Below, piece after piece: positions 23,759-41,109 of a stretch of DNA of 60,283 bases. The stretch's first letter is position 1. Each line of letters starts with the position of its first letter. This DNA is from a virus. The stretch is taken from positions 1-60,283 of IMG/VR virus record IMGVR_UViG_3300017788_000995; one strand, 5' to 3'. Under the pieces are notes generated by a model. That model was not told the origin of the DNA. It was given only the letters and a program-made list of their open reading frames with translations, and did not search any database. The position numbers were made by a program, and so were the translations under genes.

Positions 23759-24535
23759 TTATCCTTTCGCGTATGGAGCCCTGATATCCAAGCCCCCGTG
23801 GGTCAGCAATGCGCTTGCTGTGTGGTGCTGCGCCTTATCTGCGTCTATCACTGGCATATCTTTACGCGCTGGCGCACCTGCGGGCGGCCTCTTTGCTTTC
23901 AGCGCATTGAAACGCTTCTGCAATTCTTTCTCACCGATCTTGTTTAGCCATGCTGCTGCTTTGTTTTTGTCGTAGAACTTAGGACTAATATACTTTCCTG
24001 TCTTGATGATGTCAAGTATATCTGCGAAAGAAGCGTCATAAAGGCTGATATCTCCACCTCCTGGCGCTCCGCGGCGTTCGTTTCCAAGCGCATCTCCCAA
24101 TGCTCTGAGTACAGGAACCAAGTCTCCGATACCTAGATCGGCTTTGAGTCCTCCAACCTTTGCAGTTGGATTAGCAAGCATGGTTGCTGCCCATCGGTGA
24201 TGCCCGTCCAAGATGTAGTTGTCTTTGGATATGACTGCTTTCAAGTCTCCACCAGCCACTCCACCAATTGCCATACCAATCACTTTACCCATGAAGATTT
24301 CACTTTGAGTTGGCATCAATTGACTCGCTGCGATATTAGCAGGGGATGTCTTAACCACATCGTCTTTGGAGTTTCCATCCTTATGTCCTTTGGTGAGAAA
24401 CACCTTGGCGAGAGCAGTGGTAATGGGATTTGGAAACTGTGCGGGATCAACAACCTTTGTAGGAAGGTCTTCCATGAGTTCAACCGCGTGTTCGATGAGT
24501 CTGCTAATTACGCAATAGTCTTTGAAACTCTTCAT
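23759..24535 (-). CDS. ParB-like protein with possible capsid-targeting N-terminus
   Basis: The protein has 258 aa. It starts MKSFKDYCVISRLIEHA. The first seven residues match the targeting peptides of the packaged proteins at 4.6-7.2 kb, and LIE could be the protease site, though the spacing is longer. The core AVISKDNYILDGHHRWAATM is the ParB/sulfiredoxin-type signature (D-G-H-H-R). The C-terminal part includes PPAGAPARKD, DADKAQHHTAS and a long helix. A second ParB-like gene lies at 7.2 kb. It may be a phosphoryl-transfer or nuclease-type fold; packaging is a weaker inference here. Confidence 0.6.
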   Translation of the reverse strand: MKSFKDYCVISRLIEHAVELMEDLPTKVVDPAQFPNPITTALAKVFLTKGHKDGNSKDDVVKTSPANIAASQLMPTQSEIFMGKVIGMAIGGVAGGDLKAVISKDNYILDGHHRWAATMLANPTAKVGGLKADLGIGDLVPVLRALGDALGNERRGAPGGGDISLYDASFADILDIIKTGKYISPKFYDKNKAAAWLNKIGEKELQKRFNALKAKRPPAGAPARKDMPVIDADKAQHHTASALLTHGGLDIRAPYAKG

Positions 24536-24538
24536 GTA

Positions 24539-25147
24539 TCACCCGTTTGTGTGCTTGAAGAATTCAATCTGACGCAAACGCTTCAGAGCCTTTTCTTCTG
24601 ATCCATACACACCAAAACTTTTGTCTCCGTCTTTGGACATGACTTCGTATTTACCATCATCGCGCTTCACAATCTTTTCTACCAGTTCTTCTGTTAGACG
24701 AATTGAATGAACAGCGTTGATGATAACTTTCTTGGAGGTTGCTCTTGCATATGCCCATGTGACTCCACCCAGGCTACTTGTCTCAGGAACCACTTCTTTC
24801 TTGTTGCTCTTCAGAATGAATTCTGGCTTGCCTAGCATGATGCGTTTCAAGATGATGACCACATCTATTTCTTTGCTTTGATTGGCTGGGTCGAATCCCA
24901 TGGCATCAATCTCTGCGGTCTTCTTCATGCTCATCAGTTTCTTGACTTCAGCAGCAGAATCATCTGTGTCTGCTTTGAGTTTCTTCTCCAACGCCTTGCG
25001 ATCCTTGTCGCTGATTACTGGTTTAGTGGCAATGATATTACCAAAACGATCCGACTTCCGCTTCAGGGAGTTCATTGCACCTGCAAAGAATCCTGGCATT
25101 TCATCGGGAGGAGTAACTGGTGCTTCGTTTACGGTTGGGTCTTTCAT
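24539..25147 (-). CDS. Conserved-type phage protein of unknown function
   Basis: The protein has 202 aa. It is Lys-rich, with a helical N-terminal half (KDRKALEKKLKADTDD). The central region (SKEIDVVIILKRIMLG, GGVTWAYARATSKK) is probably globular. The C-terminus YEVMSKDGDKSFGVYGSEE then KALKRLRQIEFFKH resembles a short module found at the end of many aquatic phage proteins. No capsid-targeting peptide is present. GAGAG lies before the ATG; TACATA is at 25171-25166. It is first in a three-gene minus-strand group with the ParB-like and FmdB proteins. Confidence 0.5.
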   Translation of the reverse strand: MKDPTVNEAPVTPPDEMPGFFAGAMNSLKRKSDRFGNIIATKPVISDKDRKALEKKLKADTDDSAAEVKKLMSMKKTAEIDAMGFDPANQSKEIDVVIILKRIMLGKPEFILKSNKKEVVPETSSLGGVTWAYARATSKKVIINAVHSIRLTEELVEKIVKRDDGKYEVMSKDGDKSFGVYGSEEKALKRLRQIEFFKHTNG

Positions 25148-25171: not shown

Positions 25172-25185
25172 GTCGCCAAAGAAAA

Positions 25186-25210
25186 CCCACCCGTACCGAG
25201 TACGGGTGGG
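25186..25210 (-). terminator. Strong hairpin, terminator on the minus strand
   Basis: An 11-pair perfect stem (CCCACCCGTAC with GTACGGGTGGG) closes a three-base loop. On the minus strand it is followed by TTTTCTTT, a classic intrinsic terminator for the fucosyltransferase transcript. On the plus strand the same hairpin forms the 5' end of the rRNA-like element, in the place occupied by helix 69 in 23S rRNA, although the loop is not that of helix 69. Confidence 0.8.
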
Positions 25211-25211
25211 C

Positions 25212-25310
25212 GGTAGCGAAATCCCTATTCGGGTAAGTTTCCCGACACACGGCGAGTAGCGTAATCCGCCCTGCACCGTTCCAACGACTGACTCCGTGAA
25301 GTAGTGTTGG
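25212..25310 (+). ncRNA. 23S-rRNA-like element (helix 70-72 region)
   Basis: On the plus strand, GGTAGCGAAAT (25212-25222) and TCGGGTAAGTT (25229-25239) are exact 11-mers of bacterial 23S rRNA (E. coli about 1930-1960), with the same six-base spacing. CCGAC (25242), GCGTAAT (25259-25265) and GACTCCGTGAA (25290-25300, one mismatch) follow in order; the 24-base gap before the last block also equals 23S. TCGGG/CCCGA keeps the helix-71 stem despite base changes. Between these blocks the sequence is divergent, so this is not a copy of a normal host rRNA. Transcription direction is not certain: a TATAAATA box and T-tract favour the minus strand. Confidence 0.7.
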
Positions 25311-25319
25311 GGGACGCTT

Positions 25320-25327
25320 TATTTATA
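25320..25327 (-). promoter_or_regulatory. T4-type late promoter box TATAAATA
   Basis: The minus strand carries a perfect TATAAATA followed by AAGCG. Transcription would run through the complement of the rRNA-like element for about 130 bases to the hairpin with its T-tract at 25176-25185, a self-contained small-RNA unit. Confidence 0.6.
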
Positions 25328-25339: not shown

Positions 25340-26242
25340 TCAACCGCGAATGATTTTCCAGCCTGTCACATAAAGATCATATCCTTTGGGGCCTCTAGGC
25401 CCGAACCACGGATCAGGCATAGTTACAATCTTTCCTGGCGATTCGTTGAGCCATGCTCCCCACCAACTGAAACTGCTGTTCGAGATGATACAATGATCGG
25501 TTGCTCGTATAAAAGCAAGGTCTTGTGTCATTGATGTTCCTTCGGAATAGGTAAATGATCCAAACCTATTCATGGTTGGAAAGAATGATTTGCACCACGG
25601 GATATCATCGCTCACCACAATGAAATGACACTTGCCGCCCAAACTTTGAGTTATATGCTCCATTGCTCGCTCGTAGTACACAGCAGAGAACGGGAAATTT
25701 AGAGGCAGTCGCAAGTAGTCTCCACGCCGAACATGAATTGATACGACCTTTCCAGTATCCGAACTGGATCGGCTAGACTCTATGCTTTCTGTTGCACAAT
25801 CTCTGATGCATGAATCTGCAAACGAAAATGCAGCACGAACTTCTTGTTCAGCGTGCTTGAAGTACTTCTCGCTCTGAAAATATCCAAAGAAATCAATGGA
25901 ACCTTCGGCAGCAGTTAGTGCTGCAATGCGAGGAAGATACCTGATATCGTTGTGCGGTTCTCGAATCAAAATGTTTGGACGAAGTTGAGAGCAGTCAGCA
26001 ACTTGGATTCCAAACACCTCATCAATCGCCATGTTCGTCCATTGATTGCCTGGACTTTTGTTTGCATAAGGCAAACTAGGACGCAATCCTGTTTGCTTTG
26101 CGACTCCAAGCAGTAACGCATATTGGAACATTTGGTTTCCAAGTCTGCCCATTCTGCCTAAAGTTTTGCACATAACATACCCAGTAGAGGGGGGCCTCGA
26201 TTGCGCTCTACGCCCCGCGTAGGTTTCGTTCACATTCGCCAT
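25340..26242 (-). CDS. Family 11 fucosyltransferase (alpha-1,2 type)
   Basis: The protein has 300 aa. GRMGRLGNQMFQYALLLG at residues ~30-47 and VSIHVRRGDYLRLP (about 165), then HCIISNSSFSWWGAWLN (about 255), are the three GT11 signature blocks. The family moves fucose from GDP-fucose to a galactose 2-OH. The first 25 residues are extra (MANVNETYAGRRAQSR). AAGGGA precedes the ATG. It sits 13 bases after the Pro/Thr-rich virion protein, suggesting it may decorate that protein or a host glycan. Confidence 0.85.
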   Translation of the reverse strand: MANVNETYAGRRAQSRPPSTGYVMCKTLGRMGRLGNQMFQYALLLGVAKQTGLRPSLPYANKSPGNQWTNMAIDEVFGIQVADCSQLRPNILIREPHNDIRYLPRIAALTAAEGSIDFFGYFQSEKYFKHAEQEVRAAFSFADSCIRDCATESIESSRSSSDTGKVVSIHVRRGDYLRLPLNFPFSAVYYERAMEHITQSLGGKCHFIVVSDDIPWCKSFFPTMNRFGSFTYSEGTSMTQDLAFIRATDHCIISNSSFSWWGAWLNESPGKIVTMPDPWFGPRGPKGYDLYVTGWKIIRG

Positions 26243-26255: not shown

Positions 26256-27959
26256 TCACGATGAAAATATATCGTCGTCTGATCTCTTTTTCTTGTCGAT
26301 TAGCGTTGCAAGATACTGAACAAACTGAGTGGAAGTAGAGAATCTATATCCAAACTGCTTAGAGTATCGTGTGTCGCCAGAGAATGCCGCAGAAAGAACT
26401 TGAAGTATACTGTAGTCAACCAGTAAAGAAGACTCTGTAATGTTCTTCTGCGGATATGGTTCTCCGCGAATGGGTATCTGCTCTAGCATATGATATGCAA
26501 TAATGGCAGGATACAGATGATACCAGTAGTAGTTGTGAGGAAAAGTTGGGGGCCCAGTTGGTCCCGCGAGTCTTTTTTCAGAAATCGTTGGATCAAATGG
26601 ACTAGAAACAGTAATGATGCTAGAAGGATCTAGGGGTTCCAAGAAAGAATATCGCTCAAGAGTACGAACACCTTCTTTCACAGATGAGATCAGAGGATTT
26701 GCGGAACCAGTACTGGTTCTTTGAAATACTGCACGAATGAACTGCACATCTCCCATTTCGCTTGTTGCATGAGGACCAAAATCTGCTGTAGTATACGGGC
26801 AACATCTAGAGTTAGACCAATCATCGTCTGCAATTATATTGTATCCCAAGTATGGATTTGATCTTCCTATTCCTGTCTTGAATGGATGCGATTCCACATA
26901 CATTCTGTTCTTTCCTATCTTGGATTCCAGCCACTTCCAAAACCTCCACCAACCACGCTGCATGGTTCTATTCTGTACTGTTGTGGCAACATTATCTCCA
27001 GGCACAGGACCAGGAGAGAATACCCCAGCATCAAACGCAATTCGACAGTAAGCAGAAATAAACGGAGCAACAGATTCTTTTAGTCTTCTTTCAGCCGCCT
27101 TTGGATTGGTATTGAAGTACTGCTGCCAGCGTTGGATATATGTGACATATGAACCTCCATTCGCTCCGGCTGGATCGGCCAATCCCCCGATATAAATGAT
27201 TACATCAATGGGTTGTGCTGGGTTAAACCAAGCATCAGGACCTATCGTCCAAGCATCCCATGTTGCTTGATCCAAACGACCGCGAGTTCCCGTGGTCAAT
27301 GCTCGAAACACATTAACAAAGTCATTTACTAGCCAAGGAGAAGGTGTATTTAGAGTCTGTCCATTGTATGTGAGTCCATTCTTTGCATTCACATACTGAT
27401 CCACTTCATATACCGTGGCTTGAGGACTATTTGAGGGAACCATTCCAAACGGATTGTGTAAATGAAAGCGTCTGCATCCCCACTTGTACCACTTCTTTAA
27501 ACTCCACGGATTGAGTTGGCCTGGATATGGATTGTACACTCCCTCGTTCTCCAACGATATCCACTTTTCCCAAGTGAACGCGCTGTGGTCAATATTCCAA
27601 CTTCCAACTCTTCGCTTTTCGCTGCCTGTGTTTTGGTCGGATATACCCAAACCCTCAAATCCAAACACGACTCGGAACTTTTTATCAAACAAGTCTTGAG
27701 CAATCGTGGTCGATGCAGAAACGATTCCAACCGTCTGACTTGGTGTTGGAGTGATTGTTGCAGTTGGAGTAACTGAAGGTGACGGAGCAGGTCCTGAACT
27801 CGGAGAAACGCTAGGAGTTACTGTTACTGATGGAGTTGGAGTTGGAGGTGGAGGATTAGCAGAATTTGATGTCGAACTAGAAATTGTGTTGTACGAGATC
27901 ACACGGGCAGGAGGTTGCGTAACAGTTACTGTTATTCTAATAATACTTGACTCTGACAT
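26256..27959 (-). CDS. Virion-type protein with Pro/Thr/Ser-rich stalk
   Basis: The protein has 567 aa. Residues 34-78 are a low-complexity TPTPS/SVTPS stalk like those on aquatic T4-like phage structural proteins. Residues ~85-540 form a large Trp/Tyr-rich domain with segments such as WYKWGCRRFHLHNPFGM, PIDVIIYIGGLADPAG and GWWRFWKWLESKIG. These look like a TIM-barrel or glycosidase-like fold, but no catalytic motif was confirmed. The N-terminus is strand-rich (IIRITVTVTQPP). AAGGAG precedes the ATG and TACATA lies 23 bases further up. A fibre or adhesin with glycan-directed activity is a guess. Confidence 0.5.
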   Translation of the reverse strand: MSESSIIRITVTVTQPPARVISYNTISSSTSNSANPPPPTPTPSVTVTPSVSPSSGPAPSPSVTPTATITPTPSQTVGIVSASTTIAQDLFDKKFRVVFGFEGLGISDQNTGSEKRRVGSWNIDHSAFTWEKWISLENEGVYNPYPGQLNPWSLKKWYKWGCRRFHLHNPFGMVPSNSPQATVYEVDQYVNAKNGLTYNGQTLNTPSPWLVNDFVNVFRALTTGTRGRLDQATWDAWTIGPDAWFNPAQPIDVIIYIGGLADPAGANGGSYVTYIQRWQQYFNTNPKAAERRLKESVAPFISAYCRIAFDAGVFSPGPVPGDNVATTVQNRTMQRGWWRFWKWLESKIGKNRMYVESHPFKTGIGRSNPYLGYNIIADDDWSNSRCCPYTTADFGPHATSEMGDVQFIRAVFQRTSTGSANPLISSVKEGVRTLERYSFLEPLDPSSIITVSSPFDPTISEKRLAGPTGPPTFPHNYYWYHLYPAIIAYHMLEQIPIRGEPYPQKNITESSLLVDYSILQVLSAAFSGDTRYSKQFGYRFSTSTQFVQYLATLIDKKKRSDDDIFSS

Positions 27960-27981
27960 AAGAGACTCCTTGCGTGTATTC

Positions 27982-27987
27982 TATGTA
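27982..27987 (-). promoter_or_regulatory. TACATA motif before the virion-protein gene
   Basis: The minus strand reads GAGATACATAGAATACA, 23 bases upstream of the start codon, with AAGGAG in the leader. Same motif as before other late-type genes in this window. Confidence 0.4.
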
Positions 27988-27993
27988 TCTCGT

Positions 27994-29931
27994 TTAATTG
28001 CTTGATGTGAGATCAACAAGTTCGCACTTGTCTCCGCTGCACGCCAATGTTTGGGTTCCTGCGGTGTTATCTTCTTTCTCGTATTTGGCAAGACTCGTCC
28101 AATCAACATTGGTAGGAATCTTGGCTGCAAGCGATTCGTATTCGGCGACACCGCACTCTTGATACGGTGCTTGCTTGTATGTGTGATCGCTGTGCGGCAA
28201 GAAAGAGATGCCTGAAATCTTATCAAAGTGCCGATACACCCATGCTCCAACTTCCAACCATTCATGCTCTCGCACAGTAATGGTAACGCTAGGCTTGTGT
28301 TCGCACCAATTCTCCTGATACACCAACCACATCTCTAGTTGCTGAATGGCATTTAGATCATTGCGATACACACTCTTGGGAGACTTGATCGGGAAAGAGA
28401 ATACTGTGGTATGATCTGGCTTCATGTTGTCCAGTTCCCACGGGAATCCGAGGTCTTTCATAAACTTGCACAGCGGGTCTTTGTTGTCTGCACGAACAGT
28501 ACGAACATAGTACTCGCTGTGGCGAGCATGGATACCTGATGCAGAATCGGTGAGTTGAGATACAGTTCCGCTTGGCTTTACACAAGTAATTGACGCAGAC
28601 GGATTCACTCCAATCTTCTTGGCGTAATCTGCATTGACCTTTACCGCCAATGTACGAAGATCGGCAAGAGCAGACTTTAGTTCTTGAAGTCCTGCATCTC
28701 CGCGAGTCAGCGGACAGTCCATGATTCCTGTCATGGAAACTCCGAGCAGCGCCTCTTCTTCACAGTTCTTGCGCCACTCACTAGACAGATAGCGGAAGTC
28801 CACAAGAGTAGACTGCCATGTGCCAAGAATAGTTGCAAGGCGCACCTTGCGGGTGAGTGTTTCTACTGTGTCATTTTCTCGTACAATCACTTCGCTGAGA
28901 TTGCAGAACTCACGGTCGCGCAGAATGATCTCGCTGCAAGGATTTGTTCCGAACTCGTAGTTTGGATCACGGCGATCACCCAATTTCGCAACGGTCTTGC
29001 GAGTTGCTTCACGGTTAAAGATACCGCGCTCACCGCTCTTGCTCTTGTACAGAGAAACCCATTCGTCCATGAATGTGCCAATCTCTGGCTTCTCTTTGTA
29101 AGCAACAGAGTTGTTTGCAAGTGCGCGTTGCGGATTGCTCACCCACCATTGCCCTGTTTTTGCTTCGCGCATACGCTCATCTGTGAGATTAGATAGTGAA
29201 ATGAGAGCAGAACGGCGTACTCCACCAACCACAACAATCTCGGCAATCTTGCATACCAAATCGTGCGCTTCGATGCTTGTAAGTTTGCGTCCTGCTGCTG
29301 TCTTGAATGTTTCCACGGTGAAATGAAACAGATCATCAAGAGGACGAGGACCCGATGCGCGGCCTCCGAATGTCTTGAGTCTGGCTCCTGCGGGCCGTAC
29401 CTTTGTTAGATCCCACTTTGGAATCTGTCCACCGATCAACAAGGATACCAGTTCTTTGTAGGCCTTTGCCCAACCGATCTTGCTGTCTTCCACGATAATG
29501 GTAGTGTTGCTATTGGTAAATTCTTCTGCAATAGTAGGCAACTTCTCAACATACTGACGCTCTACAGAAAATCCAACACCAGTGCCACACATCAACACAT
29601 ACATGATTTCGTCAAACGCCCTGACACGATTCACGGCGACATACGAACAATTGTAGCCAGCAACATGATCTCTACGAAGTGCTTCTCCTGCGGTCATTAA
29701 ACACCGCATGGATGGCATGATATCAAGATTCAGTACAGCATCTCTCAACTCTTTTCGTAGTTCTACTGGAACTTTGTACTTGTAGTTCTCGCGCAGATGC
29801 TCGTCAAAGAAATTGAAATAGCGATCAACCGTTTCTTCCCATGTTTCGCGTTTTCCTTTATCATCCATCCATCGTGAGTAGCGAGAAAGATGAATGAAGT
29901 TCTGATATTCGGTAGGTAAAGAGTGACTCAT
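27994..29931 (-). CDS. nrdJ: Class II (B12-dependent) ribonucleotide reductase
   Basis: The protein has 645 aa. MPSMRCLMTAGEALRRDH and YNCSYVAV at the N-terminus, CGTGVGFSVE, FGTNPCSEIILRDREFCNLSE and the CVKPSGT loop are ribonucleotide reductase hallmarks. The PCSE catalytic Cys, the paired redox Cys and the absence of a separate small subunit fit the adenosylcobalamin class (monomeric triphosphate-reductase type). The C-terminal CSGDKCE is the swinging redox pair. It makes dNTPs from host ribonucleotides and needs cobalamin from the host. GGAGACAAC precedes the ATG. It lies next to thyX. Confidence 0.9.
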   Translation of the reverse strand: MSHSLPTEYQNFIHLSRYSRWMDDKGKRETWEETVDRYFNFFDEHLRENYKYKVPVELRKELRDAVLNLDIMPSMRCLMTAGEALRRDHVAGYNCSYVAVNRVRAFDEIMYVLMCGTGVGFSVERQYVEKLPTIAEEFTNSNTTIIVEDSKIGWAKAYKELVSLLIGGQIPKWDLTKVRPAGARLKTFGGRASGPRPLDDLFHFTVETFKTAAGRKLTSIEAHDLVCKIAEIVVVGGVRRSALISLSNLTDERMREAKTGQWWVSNPQRALANNSVAYKEKPEIGTFMDEWVSLYKSKSGERGIFNREATRKTVAKLGDRRDPNYEFGTNPCSEIILRDREFCNLSEVIVRENDTVETLTRKVRLATILGTWQSTLVDFRYLSSEWRKNCEEEALLGVSMTGIMDCPLTRGDAGLQELKSALADLRTLAVKVNADYAKKIGVNPSASITCVKPSGTVSQLTDSASGIHARHSEYYVRTVRADNKDPLCKFMKDLGFPWELDNMKPDHTTVFSFPIKSPKSVYRNDLNAIQQLEMWLVYQENWCEHKPSVTITVREHEWLEVGAWVYRHFDKISGISFLPHSDHTYKQAPYQECGVAEYESLAAKIPTNVDWTSLAKYEKEDNTAGTQTLACSGDKCELVDLTSSN

Positions 29932-29993
29932 TAGGTTGTCTCCAAAATGTACTGGTGCTATAGTTATGTTGGATTACTTGTTCTTGTAAGAGA

Positions 29994-30716
29994 TTACTTT
30001 TTGCCTGTCAAGGCTTTCCATGACTCGGGAAACAACGATTGAATGATTGATCCTACTGCTTCTGCATATTGTCTAATTTCCCATTGTGCATGGGGATCTG
30101 TGCGTTGATTATAGAAACGGCCGTAAGCGGCAAGAGAACCTGTCCAGTACCACTCGGTGTAAGTTCCTTGTGGTAAAACAAATCTTGCTTGCTCAGGTGC
30201 GACTCCTTCTGATAGCAGAGTCTTATATGCGTCTAGCGCATCATCTATTAGATTCTGATACACTTGATCCAACAGCGTTCGATGTTGTAAAAAATCTTCG
30301 CTGCCTTGTTTGGCTCCATTACTCGGCGCGCCGCGCCACTTTGGAGAATAAATCTGTGGTATATCTTGCACATACCGCCTAGAGATTTCATTCTCTACAA
30401 ATCCTTGTTTGTGCTTGAAGAATTGAGTTCGGATCGAAATGGGTGCCTTGATTCGCAAAGTAATTTGCGGATGGGCGAATGGTGTCCAATGGTTATGCTT
30501 TGCGAGATACGAGATTAGTTTCTCATCTCTCTCTGCAAGAATACCATCTCCATTGGTATCAATATCTTCCCATTCGCTTTCTTTGCTGAAAGAAACTCTG
30601 GCAGAATTCACGACCGTTAGATCAGAACCCATGTAGTCCACAAGATGTACGAATCCGTGATCTAGTACAAATACTGCGTCAGTCGGTATCGTCTTCGAGT
30701 TTTTCCCATCCATCAT
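29994..30716 (-). CDS. thyX: Flavin-dependent thymidylate synthase ThyX
   Basis: The likely start is 30716 (MMDGKNSKTIPTD); the open frame begins at 30773 with an MKVMKVMKVMK run that is only the shifted reading of the upstream acidic repeat. FKHKQGFVENEISRRYV is the ThyX motif, with KHK in place of the usual RHR, followed by the E-x-S-R-R-Y part. ARFVLPQGTYTEWYWTGSL and HAQWEIRQYA are conserved ThyX blocks. It makes dTMP with FAD and methylene-folate. The 5' end overlaps the acidic-protein gene by about 38 bases. Confidence 0.9.
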   Translation of the reverse strand: MMDGKNSKTIPTDAVFVLDHGFVHLVDYMGSDLTVVNSARVSFSKESEWEDIDTNGDGILAERDEKLISYLAKHNHWTPFAHPQITLRIKAPISIRTQFFKHKQGFVENEISRRYVQDIPQIYSPKWRGAPSNGAKQGSEDFLQHRTLLDQVYQNLIDDALDAYKTLLSEGVAPEQARFVLPQGTYTEWYWTGSLAAYGRFYNQRTDPHAQWEIRQYAEAVGSIIQSLFPESWKALTGKK

Positions 30717-31032
30717 TATCACTTTCTTCATATTGTTCGTCTTCATCACCTTCATCACCTTCATCACCTTCATCTACTTCAAAGTATTCTACATTAGCAA
30801 TTACATCTTCACCTTCTGCTGTTTTCACATACTCAAAGGTTATACCATTAACCTCAGTAAAAGTCACGGCGTAATCCACCGCTTTTTTCCACAACTCAGG
30901 ATTCATTTCTTTAATGTACTCAGAGAACTTGCAGTTGAACTGCAACATTGCCCAAGCCAGCGCGCCTTGCGTTTCAGGAGGAAGATCGTTTCCATCTTGG
31001 AAGATATCATCGTTATTATTTTCTTCGGTCAT
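30679..31032 (-). CDS. Acidic protein with DEG repeats
   Basis: The start at 31032 (MTEENNNDD) overlaps the primase stop as ATGA and has GGAGGCGG upstream; the protein is 117 aa. The middle part (GALAWAMLQFNCKFSEYIKE) is helical. The C-terminus is strongly acidic, with three GATGAAGGT repeats giving DEGDEGDEGDED and an EDDTD end. DNA mimicry or protein-partner binding is possible. Function is unknown. The repeat also generates the misleading N-terminal extension of thyX. Confidence 0.65.
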   Translation of the reverse strand: MTEENNNDDIFQDGNDLPPETQGALAWAMLQFNCKFSEYIKEMNPELWKKAVDYAVTFTEVNGITFEYVKTAEGEDVIANVEYFEVDEGDEGDEGDEDEQYEESDNDGWEKLEDDTD

Positions 31033-32048
31033 ATCCGCCTCCATCTGTTAAGGTTTACTCTTGCCGAAAGACCTCTATATGTATGGTTGTCTACCATCTG
31101 ACGGATACTTTCCGCAGAGCGCGTTCCTAACATCTCATTTATGTCTTTTTCCGAGATTCCGTCAGGCCATATGCATACCTGTTTACCTGATTCGATCAGT
31201 TCTTCGTTGTATTCCACAATCTGTTTGTTACGCGGTTCGTTGTCAAGCACGAACACCAAATCGCTATGAGCAAGAAAGTCGGGCAAGTCATCGCTGGCGT
31301 TTGCTCCAACCATTGCAATGGCATTTGGAAGTATCATGCTGTCGAGCGGCCCTTCCACGACATAGACTCTCTGTGTAGCATCTACCTTCCACAATCCATA
31401 CCACAGTTTTTCTTGTCCCTTTGGCTTCAGAGTGATGTACCGCAGAGATTCCCGTTGGTTCATGGTTCTTCCTTGAACCCCAATGAAATTACCGCTGCGA
31501 TCAAAGAACGGAATCACGATGCGTGGATCTTCTCTGCGAGTGTTTGGAAAGTACTCAGGATCAATCTTCTTACCAACTTTAGTAAAGTCATGGGCATACA
31601 TGAGTTCAGCAAGACAAGACTTGGGAAGTCCTCTGCCTAAAATATACTGTACTGCTTCGTGCTGATCGCTCAACTCCACAAGACGAGGCAATCCTTCCAA
31701 CGGATTTACCTTGCGTTTCTTGGGGAGTTGTGTCTTGGAAACAACAGGAACAGATTGTTCGTTTGGTTGTCCGCTTCTCTCTTTGAAAGACTCCAATGCA
31801 TACTCTCTCGCCAGCGATGGAGCAACCTGCTTTAGAATCGTATGCACTCCGCAAGACACCCCGCAGTTATGACACTTGTATACCCATCGGTCTTTGAACG
31901 GAAAGAAGTATCCACGCGCCTTGGACTTGTTCTTGTCTGAGTCTCCGCAAAACGGACACCGACAGTTAGCCAGCGTTTCTTTCTTCCACACAAAGCGTTC
32001 AAGCGAACTTGAAATGTATCCGATGTACTTCTTGTCTACGAAACTCAT
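31029..32048 (-). CDS. 61: DNA primase gp61
   Basis: The protein has 339 aa. The N-terminal zinc finger is CPFCGDSDKNK (C31, C34) with CHNCG (C59, C62). The Toprim domain follows, with VYVVEGPLDSMILPNA (about residue 226) and DLVFVLDNEP (about 258). These are the template-recognition and catalytic parts of DnaG-type primase. It makes RNA primers with gp41. The gene lies directly after helicase gp41, as in T4. A 12-base box shared with the resolvase gene lies upstream. Confidence 0.9.
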   Translation of the reverse strand: MSFVDKKYIGYISSSLERFVWKKETLANCRCPFCGDSDKNKSKARGYFFPFKDRWVYKCHNCGVSCGVHTILKQVAPSLAREYALESFKERSGQPNEQSVPVVSKTQLPKKRKVNPLEGLPRLVELSDQHEAVQYILGRGLPKSCLAELMYAHDFTKVGKKIDPEYFPNTRREDPRIVIPFFDRSGNFIGVQGRTMNQRESLRYITLKPKGQEKLWYGLWKVDATQRVYVVEGPLDSMILPNAIAMVGANASDDLPDFLAHSDLVFVLDNEPRNKQIVEYNEELIESGKQVCIWPDGISEKDINEMLGTRSAESIRQMVDNHTYRGLSARVNLNRWRRI

Positions 32049-32071
32049 TGGAAATGCTCAAAAAGGACTGG

Positions 32072-32083
32072 GTTGACAGCGAA
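32072..32083 (-). promoter_or_regulatory. Shared 12-base box upstream of the primase
   Basis: TTCGCTGTCAAC on the minus strand, 23 bases before the primase ATG, followed by a T-run. The same box and spacing occur before the resolvase gene (19055-19066). It may bind an activator, comparable in position to a T4 MotA box; no good -10 is visible here. Confidence 0.35.
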
Positions 32084-32094
32084 TTCGCGCCGAG

Positions 32095-33516
32095 TCAAAT
32101 CTTCCATTTCTCAAACTTCTTACCTTCAAACTTGCGACTGTAAGACTTGCCATCGTAGCCAGACCCGTATCCACTAGATTCATCGTCATCTTCTTCAGAC
32201 GACTGACCCGTATCAACCAAAGAATCTTGTGCTGATTGCTCTACATCGTAGAACTTCATTTTGCCACGATCTACCCCCATAACAAACTTCTTGTTGGTGT
32301 TCTCGTCTCCGTATCTGTTCTTGAGTTGCTTCACTAGCACCTGATTCAGAGAGTCTAGTTGTTCGGTGCGAATCACGGCAAACATGAAATCGGCGGTTGC
32401 TGGCAAACCAAATGATTCTGAGGTATTTTCAAGTCCAACATCGCTGTTGTTGAATCCGCCGCGGTTTGTCTGTGTTGCTGAGAAGATGGGAACATCGTAT
32501 TCTACAGCAAGACCGCGCAACTCTTCTGCAATCGCCTTGATGTAAACATAGGTGTTCACATTAGAGTTCATCTTGACACGAGAACTGGCACAGATGTTCA
32601 GATAGTCCACAAAGATGATGTCTGGCACAAACTTCTTCTTGATCTTGAGTTCATGCAGCAGATGACGAAAGTGGGCAACCGTTGCAGTTGCAGTCGGATA
32701 CTCCTTGATAATCAAATTTCCGCGCACCGATCCAACCGCTCTGGCTAGACGCTTATCGTAGGTTTCTTTTGGCAAGTCTTTCAGTTCATCAAGCGCCGTA
32801 TCCATGAGATTAGCGTCAATGCGCTCTGCAATACGCTCTTCTGCCATCTCACAGGTGATATACAGCACATTCTTGTTTGCTGTGAGGCAGGCTGCTGCAT
32901 GGTGACACATGAACATGGACTTACCTACCCCTGTTCCTGCCATCACGATGTTCAGCGTTTTGCGTGGAACACCACCCTTAGTGATCTTGTTGAAGAACTC
33001 CAAATCAAACGGCATCTTCTCTTGGGCACGGTGATAGAACTCGTACCGCTTGTCGGCATCTGCCATGTAATCGTGGCCGACTGCGGTATCAAAAGACACC
33101 GCGAGAGCATCCGATAGCAATTGTGGAATGGCGTTCTTGGTGTAGTTCTTGTCTTTGCCATCTAGAATCTGAATTGAAGCAAGCACAGCGTTGTAAACTG
33201 CCTTGTCTTTACAGAACTTCTCTGCGGTATCAATCAGCCATTTCAGATCGGTGTCTTCGTCCAAGCCAAACACTTCATTGATGAGAGAGACACATTGCTT
33301 GTGTTCGTCGCCATTCAAGCGAGAGTCATCCAAGCAAATGACCAATGCTTCTTTGGTCGGTTGAGCATTATAGGTGTCTACGAAGTTTTTGATGCAGCGA
33401 TAAACAACTTGCTCTGGCTTGGTACTGAAGTACTCCTCTCGCGTGAAAGGCAGCACAGCACGAACAAACTCTTCTCTAGTAGCCAATGCACCTAGTATGA
33501 TCTTCTCAGTTTGCAA
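32095..33516 (-). CDS. 41: Replicative helicase gp41 (DnaB type)
   Basis: The protein has 473 aa. NIVMAGTGVGKSMFMCHHAA (Walker A at 194-201), DIIFVDYLNICASSR (Walker B) and IFSATQTNRGGF (the DnaB H4 motif) identify a hexameric 5'-3' replicative helicase. The C-terminus is acidic and Ser/Gly-rich (SSEEDDDESSGYGSGY), as expected for partner binding. It partners primase gp61 and loader gp59. The start overlaps the upstream gene end by 11 bases. Confidence 0.95.
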   Translation of the reverse strand: MQTEKIILGALATREEFVRAVLPFTREEYFSTKPEQVVYRCIKNFVDTYNAQPTKEALVICLDDSRLNGDEHKQCVSLINEVFGLDEDTDLKWLIDTAEKFCKDKAVYNAVLASIQILDGKDKNYTKNAIPQLLSDALAVSFDTAVGHDYMADADKRYEFYHRAQEKMPFDLEFFNKITKGGVPRKTLNIVMAGTGVGKSMFMCHHAAACLTANKNVLYITCEMAEERIAERIDANLMDTALDELKDLPKETYDKRLARAVGSVRGNLIIKEYPTATATVAHFRHLLHELKIKKKFVPDIIFVDYLNICASSRVKMNSNVNTYVYIKAIAEELRGLAVEYDVPIFSATQTNRGGFNNSDVGLENTSESFGLPATADFMFAVIRTEQLDSLNQVLVKQLKNRYGDENTNKKFVMGVDRGKMKFYDVEQSAQDSLVDTGQSSEEDDDESSGYGSGYDGKSYSRKFEGKKFEKWKI

Positions 33517-33922
33517 GGTATCCTAACTCATTCTGTGACATGATTGGAATAGAATCTGCACCATTGTTCAAGTTGTAATCCATGATGTCTACAAGTATAT
33601 CACCGATGTATTGCAAGAATCGCTGCGAGTCAGCGGTCTTGAATCCGCCTGGGTTTTCAACAATATAGTACTCGAAACTCACACGAACACAATCATCTTC
33701 TTCCAAAAGTCGTGTGCGTCCGTAGTGATAAATCACACCTGCCCATTCTCCGTTTTCAAGGCGGATGGGAGTGAAAGGCGCCATCCTGTTTAGAAGGATG
33801 GTATACTGCTTTCCGTTTACCTCGCGTACAATCTCAGATTGGTTCGCTCTTGGCTGGAAGTTGGTTACTGTTTCCGTCTTCTCTTGATTCGGAAAGAAGC
33901 CGAGGAGAGGTTGTGTCTCCAT
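33506..33922 (-). CDS. Unknown protein in the gp40 position
   Basis: The start at 33922 ([10 protein letters not shown]) is best supported by AAAGGG nine bases upstream; the protein is 138 aa. It overlaps the uvsX 3' end by 89 bases and the helicase start by 11. [25 protein letters not shown] looks beta-rich, and the C-terminal half ([17 protein letters not shown]) is helical. In T4 this slot holds gene 40. No sequence evidence here ties it to gp40, so the function is left open. Confidence 0.6.
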
Positions 33923-34982
33923 CGTCAGCATCCCTTTCAACCGAAGAACCATATTTGAAATGCAACGCCACCATCTTTTCCAATTCATCCATTACCTCTT
34001 TCGTAAAGTACTTCTCAGGGTTTTCATTGATGTTCTTCTCGAAAGCCTTGCTTCCATCAGGCAATTCAATGCGTGTGGAAACCTTCTTGAAGATTCCAAA
34101 CTCTAACGCCAAGTCTAGCAAACCATAATACGGATTCAGTCCGCTATCGTAAGACACAAGCACATCTACCTTAGAATTCTCTTTGGTCAAACGGGACTTG
34201 TACAGTTTGCAATGAATGATGTTGCCGATCACCGTATTATCGGCGTCCTTCACCTTCTTCTTGCTGAGATATACGATGGTGGATGCAGCATACTTGAGTC
34301 CACTTCCACCCCCCATTTCCTTTGTAGGAATATACGCACCAACCACATCATATGTGTGATTGGTCATAACTAGCGGAATACCTGCTGCGCCTAACTTCAA
34401 AGTCAGAGTTCTGAAAGTTGCCTTTACCACCTGTGCGCGTGTCATATCGCGCACATCTTTGCCTGATGCTGTGTCTTCCACTTCTTTCTTAGTAGAAAGC
34501 ATTCCAAGCGAATCAAGAACCATCATCATGGGTCGTTGATTTGCCTTAGGCAGAGAACGATAGTTGTCAACAATCTGAATGGCTTGATGCCTAAACTCTT
34601 CTACTGTACCTACAGGAAACACGGCGACACGCTTTGGATCAACCCCTCGCGTTGTGAACATATCAGTAGTTACTGCTTGCTCAGAATCAAAGTATAGAAC
34701 CACTCCATCAGGATTGTCTGCCAAGAACTTGGAAACAATTCCGAGTGTGAAGAAGGTCTTTCCTGTGGCACTCTCGCCTGCAAGTGCAATGATCTTGTTA
34801 TCGGGAATACCACCGTACAGACTTCCACTCAACAGCGCATTGAAAGCATACGAACCTGTGTCGAGAAATCCGCTGATCTCTCCGCTGAGTCCTTCTTCGA
34901 TAACTCCAGCCAGTTCATTGCCTGATAGTTTCACCATGTTTCGCAGAAAATCACCACCACCAGTTTGCTTTGGAACGCTCAT
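33834..34982 (-). CDS. uvsX: Recombinase UvsX (RecA type)
   Basis: The protein has 382 aa. [13 protein letters not shown] holds the Walker A loop (69-76). [15 protein letters not shown] holds Walker B, and [16 protein letters not shown] and [17 protein letters not shown] are RecA-fold blocks. It forms strand-exchange filaments for recombination-dependent replication with gp32 and gp46/47. AGGAGAA is before the ATG. The C-terminus is acidic and polar ([12 protein letters not shown]). Confidence 0.95.
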
Positions 34983-35239
34983 GCTGTTTCTCCTGTCTGT
35001 TTGAGTTCTTGAATACTAAGTTTAAGTCGTACACCGTCTTCAACCGCCTGATTGAAGCGATCAATGTTTGATGTTTTGGAGTTTAGAAGTTCCTTCACCA
35101 ATGCTTTATTTGCTACCGATGCACTCTCCAATGTATGTAGAATGAAATCGTGTGCGTTCTGTGTTAAACGAACACAGCGAGTTGGATTGTTGTTCCAATC
35201 CTTTGCCCATTCAAAGTTTGAGTCAAGGTTTGGCATCAT
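34979..35239 (-). CDS. Small helical protein between methyltransferase and uvsX
   Basis: The protein has 86 aa, with overlaps of ATGA type at both ends. [15 protein letters not shown] and [20 protein letters not shown], then a Lys/Glu helix. Two helices are likely, and no motif is recognised. Coupling to uvsX suggests a recombination or regulatory accessory role; that is inference from position. Confidence 0.55.
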
Positions 35240-36453
35240 TCCATTAGGTTCTCCAACGAAGCAGGCTTAGACTCAAGCACTTCGCTGAGTCTTCTATCTG
35301 CAATCTTACAGTAGTCTGCATTCAAGTCAATACCAATAAACTTGCAGTCTTCCAACAAAGCACCTTTACCCGTGCTGCCGCTGCCCATGAATGGATCAAG
35401 AACAGTTCCTCCCTTGGCGCACACTAGACGCACAAGATGGCGCATGAGTTCTGTTGGCTTTACAGTTGGGTGATCGTTTCCTTCTCCACGATCCGCCTTG
35501 GATATCTTGGCACAATAGAAGAAGCGAGCGGCGGAGCCAATTGACTCATCGCTGCCGCTAGTTTGGCATTTGGTGGGGTTGCCGTTGTTGTTGAAGGGCC
35601 GGGCACCCGCCGTGCGATTCCATGTTCCGCCCTTTACATTGTTCGGGAACATCTCCACCACCTCGTCGCTGCCGTCGTGGATCAGGTTCGCGGGCCAGCG
35701 GCCTTGTGTTGGCATCTCTCGCTTGATGGCTTTCTCTTTGTCGTGGATACCTGCTGCGAACGGACTGCCCCCAACGTAATTCGTTCCCTGATACCCTCGT
35801 TTGTTTGCATCATTCACCCAATCAGCCTCCACCCTGCACCCGTCCACATTGATCGCACCCGTGCCGTACTTCTGCACATTCTCTGCTACAGTTCCTTCTA
35901 ATGGCTTTCGCGCCATGCAAATGGGTTCGCACGATGGCTTCAACGCCGTTCCCCATCCTTCCCATTGCTTTGCTGCATCAGTTGTTGCCTTGGTAACAGG
36001 AATCTCAGCGCCTTTCTGAACAATTCCCACACCACCACGCGCAAATCCACCGTGTCCCTGATTGTCTTCCACGGTGACGCCACGGGAGTATCCGACAACT
36101 TCTCGCTCGGCTCCTGCTGCCTTGTCGATTGCTTTGCTGACATCAAGTGACTTGGGAAAGGTCTTGCTGCTGACCCATGTAACGATATCGCGTACTTCCC
36201 ATCCCGCATCTTCAATCGCGGCAGCAAGTCGATGGTATGTACGAGTTCCGCTGAATGCAAGCAGATACGCTCCTGGCTTGGCAACTCTAAGTGCTTCAAC
36301 CCAAAAGTCTTTACCAGGCACACCGCGATCCCATTCATTGCCCATGAACTCTATGCCATACGGAGGATCACATACAATAGCATCCACGCTGTTCGCGGGA
36401 AGTTTATGCATTTCATCCAAGCAGTTGCCGTTAATTATAGTAAAGTCGCTCAT
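35236..36453 (-). CDS. Site-specific DNA methyltransferase, copy 1
   Basis: The protein has 405 aa. The DPPYGIEFMGNEWD block near residue 30 is motif IV (DPPY) of amino-methyltransferases (N6-adenine or N4-cytosine). DPFMGSGSTGKGALL near the C-terminus is motif I, giving a beta-class order. A ~180-residue central part holds the target-recognition region. The ends are almost identical to copy 2 (36450-37769) but the middle differs. The C-terminus ends [11 protein letters not shown]. Start overlaps copy 2's stop as ATGA. No cognate nuclease is adjacent. Confidence 0.85.
   Translation of the reverse strand: MSDFTIINGNCLDEMHKLPANSVDAIVCDPPYGIEFMGNEWDRGVPGKDFWVEALRVAKPGAYLLAFSGTRTYHRLAAAIEDAGWEVRDIVTWVSSKTFPKSLDVSKAIDKAAGAEREVVGYSRGVTVEDNQGHGGFARGGVGIVQKGAEIPVTKATTDAAKQWEGWGTALKPSCEPICMARKPLEGTVAENVQKYGTGAINVDGCRVEADWVNDANKRGYQGTNYVGGSPFAAGIHDKEKAIKREMPTQGRWPANLIHDGSDEVVEMFPNNVKGGTWNRTAGARPFNNNGNPTKCQTSGSDESIGSAARFFYCAKISKADRGEGNDHPTVKPTELMRHLVRLVCAKGGTVLDPFMGSGSTGKGALLEDCKFIGIDLNADYCKIADRRLSEVLESKPASLENLME
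35297..35390. repeat. 94-bp direct repeat, matches 36511-36604
   Basis: Offset is 1214 bases, with about one mismatch. Both copies encode the C-terminal SAM-binding block of the two methyltransferases (DPFMGSGSTGKGALLEDC region). With the 136-bp repeat it frames a divergent central cassette. Confidence 0.9.
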
Positions 36454-36472
36454 CCGAATAAACCCTCCAATG
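36337..36472. repeat. 136-bp direct repeat, matches 37653-37788
   Basis: Offset is 1316 bases, with only about four mismatches. Each copy covers the end of the upstream gene (encoding LEGLFG and the stop) plus the first ~115 bases of a methyltransferase. The right copy starts in copy 2 and ends in polymerase; this one starts in copy 1 and ends in copy 2. Confidence 0.9.
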
Positions 36473-37769
36473 AAACAGGCTTAGACTTCACAACATATGT
36501 GAGTCGTTTGTCTGCAATCTTACAGTAGTCTGCATTCAAGTCAATACCAATGAACTTGCAGTCTTCCAACAAAGCACCTTTACCCGTGCTGCCGCTGCCC
36601 ATGAACGGGTCGAGGACCACGCCGCCGGGCGGGCAGACGAGGCGGCAGAGGTAGCGCATCAGATCGGTGGGCTTGACGGTGGGATGATGGTTGCGGCGGT
36701 AAATGCGCGCCTTCTCTCCCGTGTAGACAATCTTGCACCCGCAAGCGTATGTATTCTCTCCGCTCTTATTGCTTTCGCCGTGTTCAGGGCATCTACCCGC
36801 CTTGCCTTGCGAAAACTCGATTGAGCCACGCTCCTCCAGCCCCTCGCACCCCTCATCGCGGTCGCGCTTGTTCGCCTTCGCGCAGTAGAAGAAGCGAGCG
36901 GCGGAACCTGCGCCTCCGTAGCCAAGATGCGGAAAGGTTCTTTTCACGCCTTGTTGAAAACATCCAACTTTGTCGGTGCCGCCCGCCCACCCATCCTTTG
37001 ACTGCGGAAACAGGCCCTCCACCTCATCGCTGCCGTCGTGGATCAGGTTCGCCGGCCAGCGGCCAGCGGGAGATCCCGGCTGCCAGCCATCGCCCGACTC
37101 ATAGCCGCTAGCGAACCCGCTTGCCCCGCGTGCGCCGCCGCCAAACCTATCCTCCGTCCCCACCCTGCACCCGTCCACATTGATCGCACCCGTGCCGTAC
37201 TTCTGCACATTCTCCGCGACCGTGCCGATCAGCGGCTTGCGAGCGACAGTGATCGGCTCCATCGCAGGCTTGAGCGCGGTTCCCCATCCCGCCCATTGCT
37301 TTGCTGCATCGGTGGCGGGGACGGTCAGATTACTGCCTCCAACGCCACCCTGTAATCCGTAATCCGCCATTCCATTGTTCCTGCACTCTCGGTCGTTCGG
37401 ATTCTTTCCCACCACCTCGCGTTCCGCTCCCGCCGCCTTGTCAAACGCCTTGCTTACATCCAACGACTTCGGGAAGCCGCTGCCGTACACCCACGCGATC
37501 ATGTCGCGGATGTCGAAGCCTGCATCTTCGATGTTGACCGCCATGCGGTGTTGCGTGCGCGTACCCGCGAACGCGAGCAGATGTCCGCCTGGCTTCAGTA
37601 CGCGCAGGCATTCGCGCCACACATCAACGCTCGGCACCTCGTAATCCCATTTATTGCCCATGAACTCTATGCCATACGGAGGATCACATACAATAGCATC
37701 CACGCTGTTCGCGGGAAGTTTACGCATTTCATCCAAACAGTTACCGTTAATTATAGTAAAGTCGCTCAT
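36450..37769 (-). CDS. Site-specific DNA methyltransferase, copy 2
   Basis: The start at 37769 overlaps the polymerase stop as ATGA; the protein is 439 aa. The DPPYGIEFMGNKWD motif IV and DPFMGSGSTGKGALL motif I match copy 1. The middle has many Gly-rich and Cys-containing segments (GGGARGASGFASG, YACGCKIVYTGE) and is clearly more GC-rich than the flanks. The C-terminus is VSLEGLFG, nearly the same as the DNA polymerase tail (ATLEGLFG). This suggests clamp binding or recombination at that site. Target site is unknown. Confidence 0.85.
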   Translation of the reverse strand: MSDFTIINGNCLDEMRKLPANSVDAIVCDPPYGIEFMGNKWDYEVPSVDVWRECLRVLKPGGHLLAFAGTRTQHRMAVNIEDAGFDIRDMIAWVYGSGFPKSLDVSKAFDKAAGAEREVVGKNPNDRECRNNGMADYGLQGGVGGSNLTVPATDAAKQWAGWGTALKPAMEPITVARKPLIGTVAENVQKYGTGAINVDGCRVGTEDRFGGGARGASGFASGYESGDGWQPGSPAGRWPANLIHDGSDEVEGLFPQSKDGWAGGTDKVGCFQQGVKRTFPHLGYGGAGSAARFFYCAKANKRDRDEGCEGLEERGSIEFSQGKAGRCPEHGESNKSGENTYACGCKIVYTGEKARIYRRNHHPTVKPTDLMRYLCRLVCPPGGVVLDPFMGSGSTGKGALLEDCKFIGIDLNADYCKIADKRLTYVVKSKPVSLEGLFG

Positions 37770-40306
37770 CCGAATAAACCCTCCAATGTTGCTTTGCGTT
37801 CGTGACTCCATCCAACAGTTTCCAAGATGGTCTTTAGTGGTTCCAAGAACGCCTTGTCGAACTGCATATCATAGTCGATAAATCGTTCAAGGTCAAGTTC
37901 CTTCGGAAGATAATCGGGGAATGCAATCACATTCTCTCCAAGTGGATTTGGCACACGCAGATGAATATACTTGATCTTGTCATGGTTGGAAATCTGCTTG
38001 TATTTACGGGTGAGTTTGCGATTCTTCAGCGCCTGATTCCAGACCAACGATGCTCGCACTTGCAGAGGAGTACACTTTTTGTACACCGATGCTGAGTCTG
38101 CGTACTTGTCCATTCCCTTCACTCCGCGAGGAAAGGCGATTGATTGCGGAGGCATACCATTGAACTCTGCGCGGAACGATTCAATGTGCTGAATCACTGT
38201 TTCCTGATCTGTGGTGAGAATCAGATTGATGGCTTTGGTCAAGGCATCACGCACCACCTGTGGTGTAGAAGAACGAGTGGTTTCGATGCCCATGATCTTG
38301 AGAGCAGGCTTGGCGTATCGCACACCCTCAGAGTCATGCACATTCAGAATGTACCGCTTCTTGGCAGTCCAAATGCCTGAGTCAGCGATCACCTCGCGCT
38401 TCATCACCATCTTGTTGGCGTAAGCATTCATGTACTTCGCCAACTCATCGTACTGCGCTTCAATGTACGGTTCGATCTTGTCTTCCACGCACTTGTGCAA
38501 GAAGTTCACGATCTTGGTGGTGTCGGTGCCATTTGGGAACACACGCTTCACAAGCGCACCCATGCGAAGGTATATGGAGTCTGTGTCTGAGGCAACCACA
38601 TAGTCTACACCTGTGGTCTTCAGCAATTCATTCATGTACTTGTTCAGCGCATTCTCAATCCATCTGATGCTAAGTTGTCCCGAAAGAGTGATTGCTTCTG
38701 CTTGCCTGATATCGAAGAATCGGAAGTATTCGTTACCTAGAGCGCCGTAAGCGGAGTTCAGCGCAATCTTCAAAGCCATCTGTTTGGTAGAGTGGTATGC
38801 AATCTGATTGTCGCACTCGCGTTTCTGCTTGGGATCGGTTAGCGTTTCCTTGTGCTTCTTGGCGTGGATCATGGCGGTCTTTGCTGCCTTGCGATCCTCA
38901 TACATTCGATCCATGAGTGCAGGCAAGAATCCCTGCCGATCCTTGCGGAAGCATTGACCGTTCGCAGCCATTGCAACTCCAAGTCCAGGCAGATGCGTTG
39001 TGTCCACCTTGTGGTGCAGCAGATCATCCACCGTGTTTCCTTTGCCCATTCCAATGCGATCCACGATGGTGTCAGGAGAGATGTTGTACTGCATAATGAG
39101 GTGTGGGTATAGCGAGTTCAAGTCAAGCGATACCACCCAATCATGGCGACCAAACAACGGTTCCTTCACATAAGCGCCAGCGTACTGGAAGTCCTTGCGC
39201 GAGTCCTTCTTCATGGGAATCACGGTATTGTGATCCATGAGGTACGAATGAATCAGACAGTCCCATGTACGAACCTGCGAGAACACATCTTCGTAGTTGC
39301 ACTTGGCAAGATACGCAATCGACAGTTGCAGTTCGATGAGTTTCAGTTTGTCGTCCAGGCGCCGAACAAGCGCAACATCCTTGATGTTGTACTCCACGAA
39401 TCGCTTGAAGTTCTGCTTGTAGAAGTCAGTCATGTTGCCGTACTCCTCGTAGGACAACTTGCGCTCGTCCAGTTCCACAAACGCGATATGGTCAAGTTTG
39501 TAACTCTCTTGATTGGTGAAGGTGTACTGCTTGTACAACTCAAAGTAGTCTAGTGACGAGATGCCCACCAGTTCATAGCACACAGTCTCACGCTGCTTGA
39601 TGACCACGCGTTTCTCTTTGATCTTGCGCCAAGGAGACAATCTAACCACCTCTCGGTCGCCCAACACACGCACAATGCGATTGTGTAGATAAGGCAGGTC
39701 AAAGAAGCGAGTGTTCCATCCCGTGATTACATCAGGAGGATTCTGTTCCCAATGCTCCAAGAACGATTCAAGCAAGTCTTCCTCTCGCTTGAATGTGTGC
39801 AGTTCTACGGGAGCATCCGCGTCCAAGTCTCCCGCGATATCACCCAATGCCCAACAATGGTAGCGATCCTTGCGCCAGAGCGTGATGACATTGATCTGCT
39901 CGTTTGGGTCTTCGGGAATTGGAAAGCCTGACTCGCAAGTGGTTTCAATGTCAATCACGGTCACATCAATATGATCGATAGACCACGCGATATCTTTCTT
40001 CCAATGCTGGCGAGTATAGTCATAGGCAAACTGATACTGGTACTGAGTGTTACCGTAAATCTCGAATCCTTGCACGCCTTGGTACTGATCCAAGAACTCT
40101 TTGCAATCACGCATGGTTCCAGGCATCACAGGTTCCACTCGCTTACTATTCACCGTGCTATGCTTGGTGTTTGGTTTGTTGGAAGGCACCCACAGCGTGG
40201 GTTGGTATTCTATTGCCTCGTTAAAGCGCAATCCTGTTGCGGAGTCTACCCCGCGCAACAGGATGCGATTGCCAAGCAGCGAAATGTTGGTGTAGTATTT
40301 GCTCAT
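37766..40306 (-). CDS. 43: Family B DNA polymerase gp43
   Basis: The protein has 846 aa. The 3'-5' exonuclease Exo I is DIETTCESGFP (about residue 98), and Exo II is GWNTRFFDLPYL. The polymerase motif A is SLDLNSLYPHLIMQYNISP, motif B KIALNSAYGALGN, and motif C DTDSIYLRMG. The C-terminus KATLEGLFG is the clamp-binding peptide position of T4-type polymerases. It copies phage DNA with clamp gp45 and loader gp44/62. The promoter -10 ends eight bases before the ATG, so the mRNA is likely leaderless. Confidence 0.95.
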   Translation of the reverse strand: MSKYYTNISLLGNRILLRGVDSATGLRFNEAIEYQPTLWVPSNKPNTKHSTVNSKRVEPVMPGTMRDCKEFLDQYQGVQGFEIYGNTQYQYQFAYDYTRQHWKKDIAWSIDHIDVTVIDIETTCESGFPIPEDPNEQINVITLWRKDRYHCWALGDIAGDLDADAPVELHTFKREEDLLESFLEHWEQNPPDVITGWNTRFFDLPYLHNRIVRVLGDREVVRLSPWRKIKEKRVVIKQRETVCYELVGISSLDYFELYKQYTFTNQESYKLDHIAFVELDERKLSYEEYGNMTDFYKQNFKRFVEYNIKDVALVRRLDDKLKLIELQLSIAYLAKCNYEDVFSQVRTWDCLIHSYLMDHNTVIPMKKDSRKDFQYAGAYVKEPLFGRHDWVVSLDLNSLYPHLIMQYNISPDTIVDRIGMGKGNTVDDLLHHKVDTTHLPGLGVAMAANGQCFRKDRQGFLPALMDRMYEDRKAAKTAMIHAKKHKETLTDPKQKRECDNQIAYHSTKQMALKIALNSAYGALGNEYFRFFDIRQAEAITLSGQLSIRWIENALNKYMNELLKTTGVDYVVASDTDSIYLRMGALVKRVFPNGTDTTKIVNFLHKCVEDKIEPYIEAQYDELAKYMNAYANKMVMKREVIADSGIWTAKKRYILNVHDSEGVRYAKPALKIMGIETTRSSTPQVVRDALTKAINLILTTDQETVIQHIESFRAEFNGMPPQSIAFPRGVKGMDKYADSASVYKKCTPLQVRASLVWNQALKNRKLTRKYKQISNHDKIKYIHLRVPNPLGENVIAFPDYLPKELDLERFIDYDMQFDKAFLEPLKTILETVGWSHERKATLEGLFG

Positions 40307-40314
40307 GGTTCATA

Positions 40315-40342
40315 AGCATAGCACATATTCAGCACTATGCAA
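40315..40342 (-). promoter_or_regulatory. Sigma70-type promoter for DNA polymerase
   Basis: On the minus strand: TTGCAT (40342-40337), 16 bases, TATGCT (40320-40315). Only eight bases separate the -10 from the ATG, giving a leader of about 0-2 bases. It falls in the 37-base gap before the lysozyme gene. Confidence 0.65.
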
Positions 40343-40343
40343 G

Positions 40344-41075: not shown

Positions 41076-41081
41076 GCGCTT

Positions 41082-41109
41082 ATTATATCATCGATCCAAG
41101 ATCAGTCAA
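41082..41109 (-). promoter_or_regulatory. Consensus sigma70 promoter for the lysozyme gene
   Basis: On the minus strand: TTGACT (41109-41104), 16 bases, TATAAT (41087-41082). Six bases separate the -10 from the ATG, so the transcript would start at the ATG itself (leaderless). Confidence 0.85.

Follow-up and report, generated by a model that had tools for sequence, protein, structure and literature searches.

Short intergenic RNAs of phage origin are known from Grad-seq of phiKZ, where they were examined for cosedimentation with ribosomes (PMC8545117); the phage and the sequences differ from those considered here, and in the accessible part of that account complementarity to ribosomal RNA does not figure. 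That base-pairing to 23S rRNA can inhibit translation is known from antisense PNAs and oligonucleotides (reviewed in PMC1995221), which, in contrast to a phage-encoded RNA, are synthetic, short, and aimed at the alpha-sarcin loop, the peptidyl transferase centre or domain II. The toxins MazF-mt3 and MazF-mt6 act on helix 70 of 23S rRNA and have the site UUCCU in common with the present RNA, but MazF is a protein nuclease (PMC5408214). T4-like late transcription units share with our locus both the promoter box and the T4-like genome; the phage RNA differs from them in its noncoding product and in having its own terminator. The literature that we covered, with subscription journals mostly outside it, describes no phage RNA antisense to rRNA. 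We are unaware of any natural RNA from a phage that is antisense to rRNA. Here we analyze a locus whose sequence suggests that a group of T4-like phages encodes a 23S-complementary RNA that may target the host ribosome through base-pairing.

The window, by which we mean the whole stretch of DNA analyzed, is a virus record of 60,283 bases from a phage that is T4-like by gene content, with a gp43-type DNA polymerase, UvsX, a clamp loader, and tail tube and baseplate proteins. Its DNA polymerase is less than 60% identical to every match among named phages. The RNA element lies between two minus-strand genes, encoding a glycosyltransferase and a 202-aa protein (Table 1). The 202-aa protein and a 258-aa protein (23759-24535, minus) match separate parts of phrog_2859, a 740-aa phage family of unknown function, and the pair looks like a larger protein that has been split; within the 258-aa protein is a DADKAQHHRWAATM-type motif, which we take to be like the motifs of ParB-type proteins. 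Elsewhere in the window, a second intergenic late-type promoter box, CATAAATA (7204-7211, minus), stands directly 5′ of a 96-aa open reading frame (6912-7202, minus), and a ribonucleotide reductase akin to the B12-dependent class by weak Pfam matches adjoins a ThyX thymidylate synthase (27994-29931 and 29994-30773, minus). Two related DNA methyltransferase genes lie side by side directly before the DNA polymerase gene (35236-36453 and 36450-37811, minus), and a 1271-aa protein (8467-12282, minus) has no match in PHROGs.

Table 1. Features of the RNA locus, with positions in the window.
Feature	Position	Strand	Basis or remark
Putative T4-type late promoter box TATAAATA	25320-25327	minus	motif sequence
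Proposed small RNA, ~135 nt	25178-25315	minus	fold and covariation
Helix P2 (CCAAC...GUUGG), loop around CUUCACGGAG	25281-25310	minus	folding and covariation
Helix P3, apical GAUUACGC complementary to planctomycete-type 23S GCGUAAUC	25249-25279	minus	alignment, covariation, pairing
Helix P4 (UCGGG-AAACUUA-CCCGA)	25229-25245	minus	near clade: complement of helix 71; far members: loop variable
P1 3′ strand and linker GGGAUUUCGCUACC	25212-25225	minus	complementary to 23S 1929-1942 (E. coli); most constrained segment
Intrinsic terminator hairpin, 12 pairs, then TTTCTTT	25185-25211	minus	"helix 69" of the preliminary description
23S block GGTAGCGAAAT	25212-25222	plus	
23S block TCGGGTAAGTT	25229-25239	plus	
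23S block GCGTAAT	25259-25265	plus	
23S block GACTCCGTGAA	25290-25300	plus	
Glycosyltransferase gene	25340-26242	minus	neighbor of the RNA
202-aa protein gene	24539-25147	minus	neighbor of the RNA
AGCGUAAUC			sequence naming a planctomycete 23S type

The preliminary description of this DNA reported ordered blocks of 23S domain IV on the plus strand, and this relationship is real. The blocks are present, and local alignment to the 23S rRNA of Listeria or Salmonella scores 42-44 against a mean of 20 (sd ∼2) for dinucleotide shuffles, which corresponds to p ∼1e-7 per 23S sequence; the near relatives tested all gave values of 1e-5 to 1e-9. On the numbering of E. coli rrlB, 1929-1942 is the helix-70 segment and the remainder runs to ∼2015. 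The proposed covariance-model alignment did not bear out an rRNA identity, since LSU_rRNA_bacteria (RF02541) scores 13 bits (E 0.036) against a gathering score of 50, and by that test the element is not an rRNA gene. Its likeness to that family is a sequence relationship over ∼90-110 nt, covering helices 70-72 and clearest with 23S from Planctomycetota. What sets it apart is its location on the opposite strand, its length of only ∼110 nt, its own box and terminator, and a new four-helix fold; rather than a sense-strand transcript with the rRNA fold, it is the minus strand that folds and covaries. The putative RNA thus corresponds to the complementary strand of domain IV of 23S rRNA, at E. coli positions ∼1929-2015, and a covariance model derived solely from phage sequences aligns full length in antisense with Salmonella 23S at 17.8 bits. 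No GTDB genome yielded a 23S in which GACTCCGTGAA was correctly spaced, which argues that this block in the window is no copy of a host variant. Contaminating host rRNA, already doubted in the preliminary description, and misassembled rRNA are ruled out by the ∼110-nt length, the divergence, and the conservation of the element in 20 contigs and several contexts.

Relatives were traced through the gene downstream of the RNA, then with DNA patterns, and then with a covariance model; a model from six sequences detected distant members and led to our alignment A4. The element is indeed present in related phages, where the preliminary description had suggested looking for it: the family comprises at least 15 distinct sequences, found in several genomic settings on at least 20 viral contigs, and the RNA is intergenic in every member. 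In a near clade, box, RNA and terminator are all retained although the upstream sequence changes, and in far members the RNA occupies other locations, for example behind a phage single-strand-binding protein gene. One contig (L008) lacks the RNA although its downstream gene is the same and its terminator similar, which identifies the RNA as a separable module; there (3001-3597 and upstream) another gene and another hairpin precede the terminator. Pattern matches in L020 and in most of L094-L211 and L214-L261 were discarded as chance. Among the named phages of a 50,697-record collection there was no recognizable copy of the RNA, the matches being ordinary 23S or chance. Bacterial 23S rRNA does occur inside several deposited phage records (e.g., KT319643.1, OR845016.1 and KM209255.1), probably as host contamination. 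No Rfam 15 family scored above its gathering threshold anywhere in the window, and the locus of one far member (L251) gave no match even at E 0.1; sub-threshold matches to IR_84, HepC_CRE, JUMPstart and anti-hemB are regarded as chance.

From its sequence, the element looks like a minus-strand small-RNA gene consisting of a late-type promoter box, a four-helix RNA of ∼135 nt and an intrinsic terminator. The box, NATAAATA or TATAAATA, is the late promoter consensus of T4-like phages (PMC2984593), and the predicted 5′ end of the RNA was set from the usual box-to-start distance, ∼5-6 nt after it, as in a T4-type late transcription unit. All near-clade members have an nATAAATA box despite differences in upstream sequence and upstream gene, and in far members CTAAATA or TATACATA takes its place at the same distance from the RNA; across the window as a whole the late-promoter motif is not significantly enriched. 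A conserved structured RNA flanked by its own predicted promoter and an intrinsic terminator is the arrangement of an autonomous small-RNA gene. The minus strand folds at -64.4 kcal/mol (z -4.5) and the plus strand at -54.2 (z -2.2), and no plus-strand promoter in the region rises above chance. When the stems of A4 are read on the minus strand there are 72 G-U against 17 A-C cells, which identifies that strand as the RNA. Promoter box, terminator, direction of the flanking genes, folding energy and G-U-tolerant covariation all point to the minus strand, and it follows that the RNA complements 23S rRNA and does not copy it. The hairpin that had been assigned to the place of helix 69 is the minus-strand intrinsic terminator; in distant relatives it is swapped for unrelated terminator hairpins, and hence it is not helix 69.

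In the 15 sequences of A4, standard pairs occupy 92.7% of cells and both sides have changed in 20 of 45 pairs, counts that lean towards the covariance model to which the alignment was fitted. None of 500 shuffles matched A4 on any of five measures, and when the structure was slid along the alignment just 35-45% of cells were paired. The terminator itself has been altered on both sides at 11 of its 12 pairs somewhere in the family. The earlier suggestion that selection maintains a structure here is well supported by this covariation. For the near clade, RNAalifold and single-sequence folding gave essentially the same structure; for several far members the single-sequence fold is no better than that of shuffles (z near 0), so that their structure rests on covariation. 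Ensemble calculations leave the P3 loop open in nearly all members, with an unpaired probability of ∼1, and give a linker that is between half and fully open.

The RNA carries the signature of a particular 23S lineage. Across members, identity to the reverse complement of a planctomycete 23S sequence is 75-81%, against 56-67% for that of Salmonella or Listeria, and the phage-only covariance model matches Planctomycetota 23S full length in antisense with E values of 1e-6 to 1e-3. Most far members share the 16-mer GUGAUUACGCUAUUCA exactly with the planctomycete 23S genes. When GTDB was scanned for GATTACGCT followed by TTCGCTACC, the 23S sequences among the matches listed came almost only from Planctomycetota-named records, the exceptions being a handful of metagenome bins with odd labels. 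A covariance-model search with strict filters returned few matches in 119 Planctomycetota genomes, and blast of a far member was used in its place: the core of this sequence (L104) matched 18 of 79 sampled genomes of Planctomycetota, the phylum of an Isosphaera bin, at E<1e-3, the best match having 82% identity over 93 of 96 bases (E 6.5e-17). The same core matched none of 59 genomes in the phylum of a Verrucomicrobia bin and none of 80 in that of Pantoea. A comparison of positions 26300-46200, one third of the window, with 392 Planctomycetota genomes revealed no clear CRISPR spacer, the matches (67-97% identity) resembling related genes or short repeats; evidence on the host therefore stays indirect, the 23S signature being its sole link. 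On the strength of that signature, the host is most likely a member of the Planctomycetota.

Complementarity to 23S rRNA is extended and conserved. Predicted duplexes with planctomycete 23S have energies of -128 to -150 kcal/mol, compared with -66 to -87 (sd ∼5) for shuffles, and in every member they are stronger than those with Salmonella 23S. In all 15 members, every cell of the P1 3′ strand and linker is pairable with planctomycete 23S, as are 97% of cells in the P3 apical segment and 69% in the P4 loop, the 5′ strands being looser. Within P1-P3, 3′ strands are 87% and 5′ strands 53% identical to the anti-23S sequence. The sequences compared are related, by pair the asymmetry is modest (16 versus 4, p 0.036), and in the near clade alone it is not clear (7 versus 5). 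This pattern suggests that an antisense sequence was made able to fold through remodelling of the strands opposite it. The longest unbroken pairable run is 15 nt in the window and 27-28 nt in the best members, and complementarity is partly lost in the near clade, including the window. Substitutions away from the anti-23S sequence comprise 25 transitions that keep pairing, 16 that lose it and 42 transversions; these counts lean towards pairing but are not decisive, because intramolecular stems give the same bias. Identity to the anti-23S sequence differs little between paired (70.7%) and unpaired (76.9%) positions.

These observations bear on whether the RNA still pairs with its counterpart. 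It could be a fossil, a reverse-oriented piece of planctomycete 23S that now serves as a structured RNA, such as a protein scaffold or a regulator of phage mRNA, with no rRNA pairing. Such an origin would suit the strong covariation, which is independent of 23S, and the disappearance of the helix-71 complement from most far members and, in part, from the near clade. We nevertheless regard it as unlikely: anti-23S sequence is kept in the unpaired and 3′-strand segments while the opposite strands have diverged, and loops under no such constraint would be expected to change most rapidly, which is what the P4 loop does.

Our preferred reading is that pairing with 23S is the function of the RNA, which we consider rather probable. 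Helix/loop 70 is needed for association of the 50S and 30S subunits, and MazF-mt6 cuts 23S in helix 70 in free 50S subunits but not in 70S ribosomes (reviewed in PMC5408214), so that the site is reachable in free 50S; this exposure is the basis for proposing a late antisense RNA that would act on free or immature 50S subunits. We infer that the RNA is transcribed from the minus strand, probably late in infection, and ended by its own terminator, and that its target would be domain IV of the host 23S at ∼1929-2015 (E. coli), comprising helices 70-72 and the strand after them. The predicted four-helix junction carries 23S-complementary stretches in the linker, the apical loop and the 3′ stem strands. 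Pairing with the exposed helix 70-72 strand would be initiated by the linker UUCGCUACC or the P3 loop, after which the hairpins of the RNA would open and the duplex with 23S would spread. The duplex could then block 50S maturation or 30S joining, with the result that host ribosomes would be held back or earmarked for degradation. Against this explanation stands the state of domain IV in the mature ribosome, where it is structured and in part buried, and a ribosome block is of no obvious use, because the phage still needs ribosomes late. Interference with 50S maturation or joining as the particular effect we consider somewhat less likely than not, and for the explanation as a whole, a late antisense RNA directed against host helix 70-72 that hinders one of these steps, we judge the chances to be even.

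It is also conceivable that the antisense RNA acts as a shield, covering helix 70 with its UUCCU and protecting 23S from rRNA-cutting toxins or modification enzymes triggered by infection. The segment under the strongest constraint is complementary to positions 1929-1942, among them the UUCCU cut by MazF-mt6 and MazF-mt3 (PMC5408214), and to this extent the connection with MazF drawn in the preliminary description survives, since the RNA could cover the helix-70 site; as a complement of 23S and not a copy, it could not mimic that site. Complementarity reaches far past UUCCU, however, and an RNA bound over helix 70 should in its own right disturb 50S function; we find a protective role improbable. 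A decoy read from the plus strand that would imitate domain IV and titrate toxins or modification enzymes, as originally envisaged, would agree with the strand on which the 23S blocks stand, but with every indicator of transcription and folding on the minus strand it is very improbable. Chance resemblance to 23S, for which only the low Rfam LSU score could be cited, is refuted by the significance of the alignment in every near member, by the match of a far member to planctomycete 23S and by the antisense matches of the phage-only model in many Planctomycetota.

Taken in its broadest form, our proposal is that phages of Planctomycetota express an antisense RNA, acting in trans and originating in the opposite strand of a host 23S gene, which would bind domain IV late in infection and control ribosome assembly or joining, and which would represent a new class of viral RNA; we hold the likelihood of this to be slightly short of even. 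If true, it would define a route of host takeover that operates through base-pairing with the ribosome and not through proteins. Because the RNA bears a planctomycete 23S lineage signature, it would also mark uncultured T4-like phages of Planctomycetota, and the reprogramming of host ribosomes by phages becomes testable through a single RNA of ∼135 nt.
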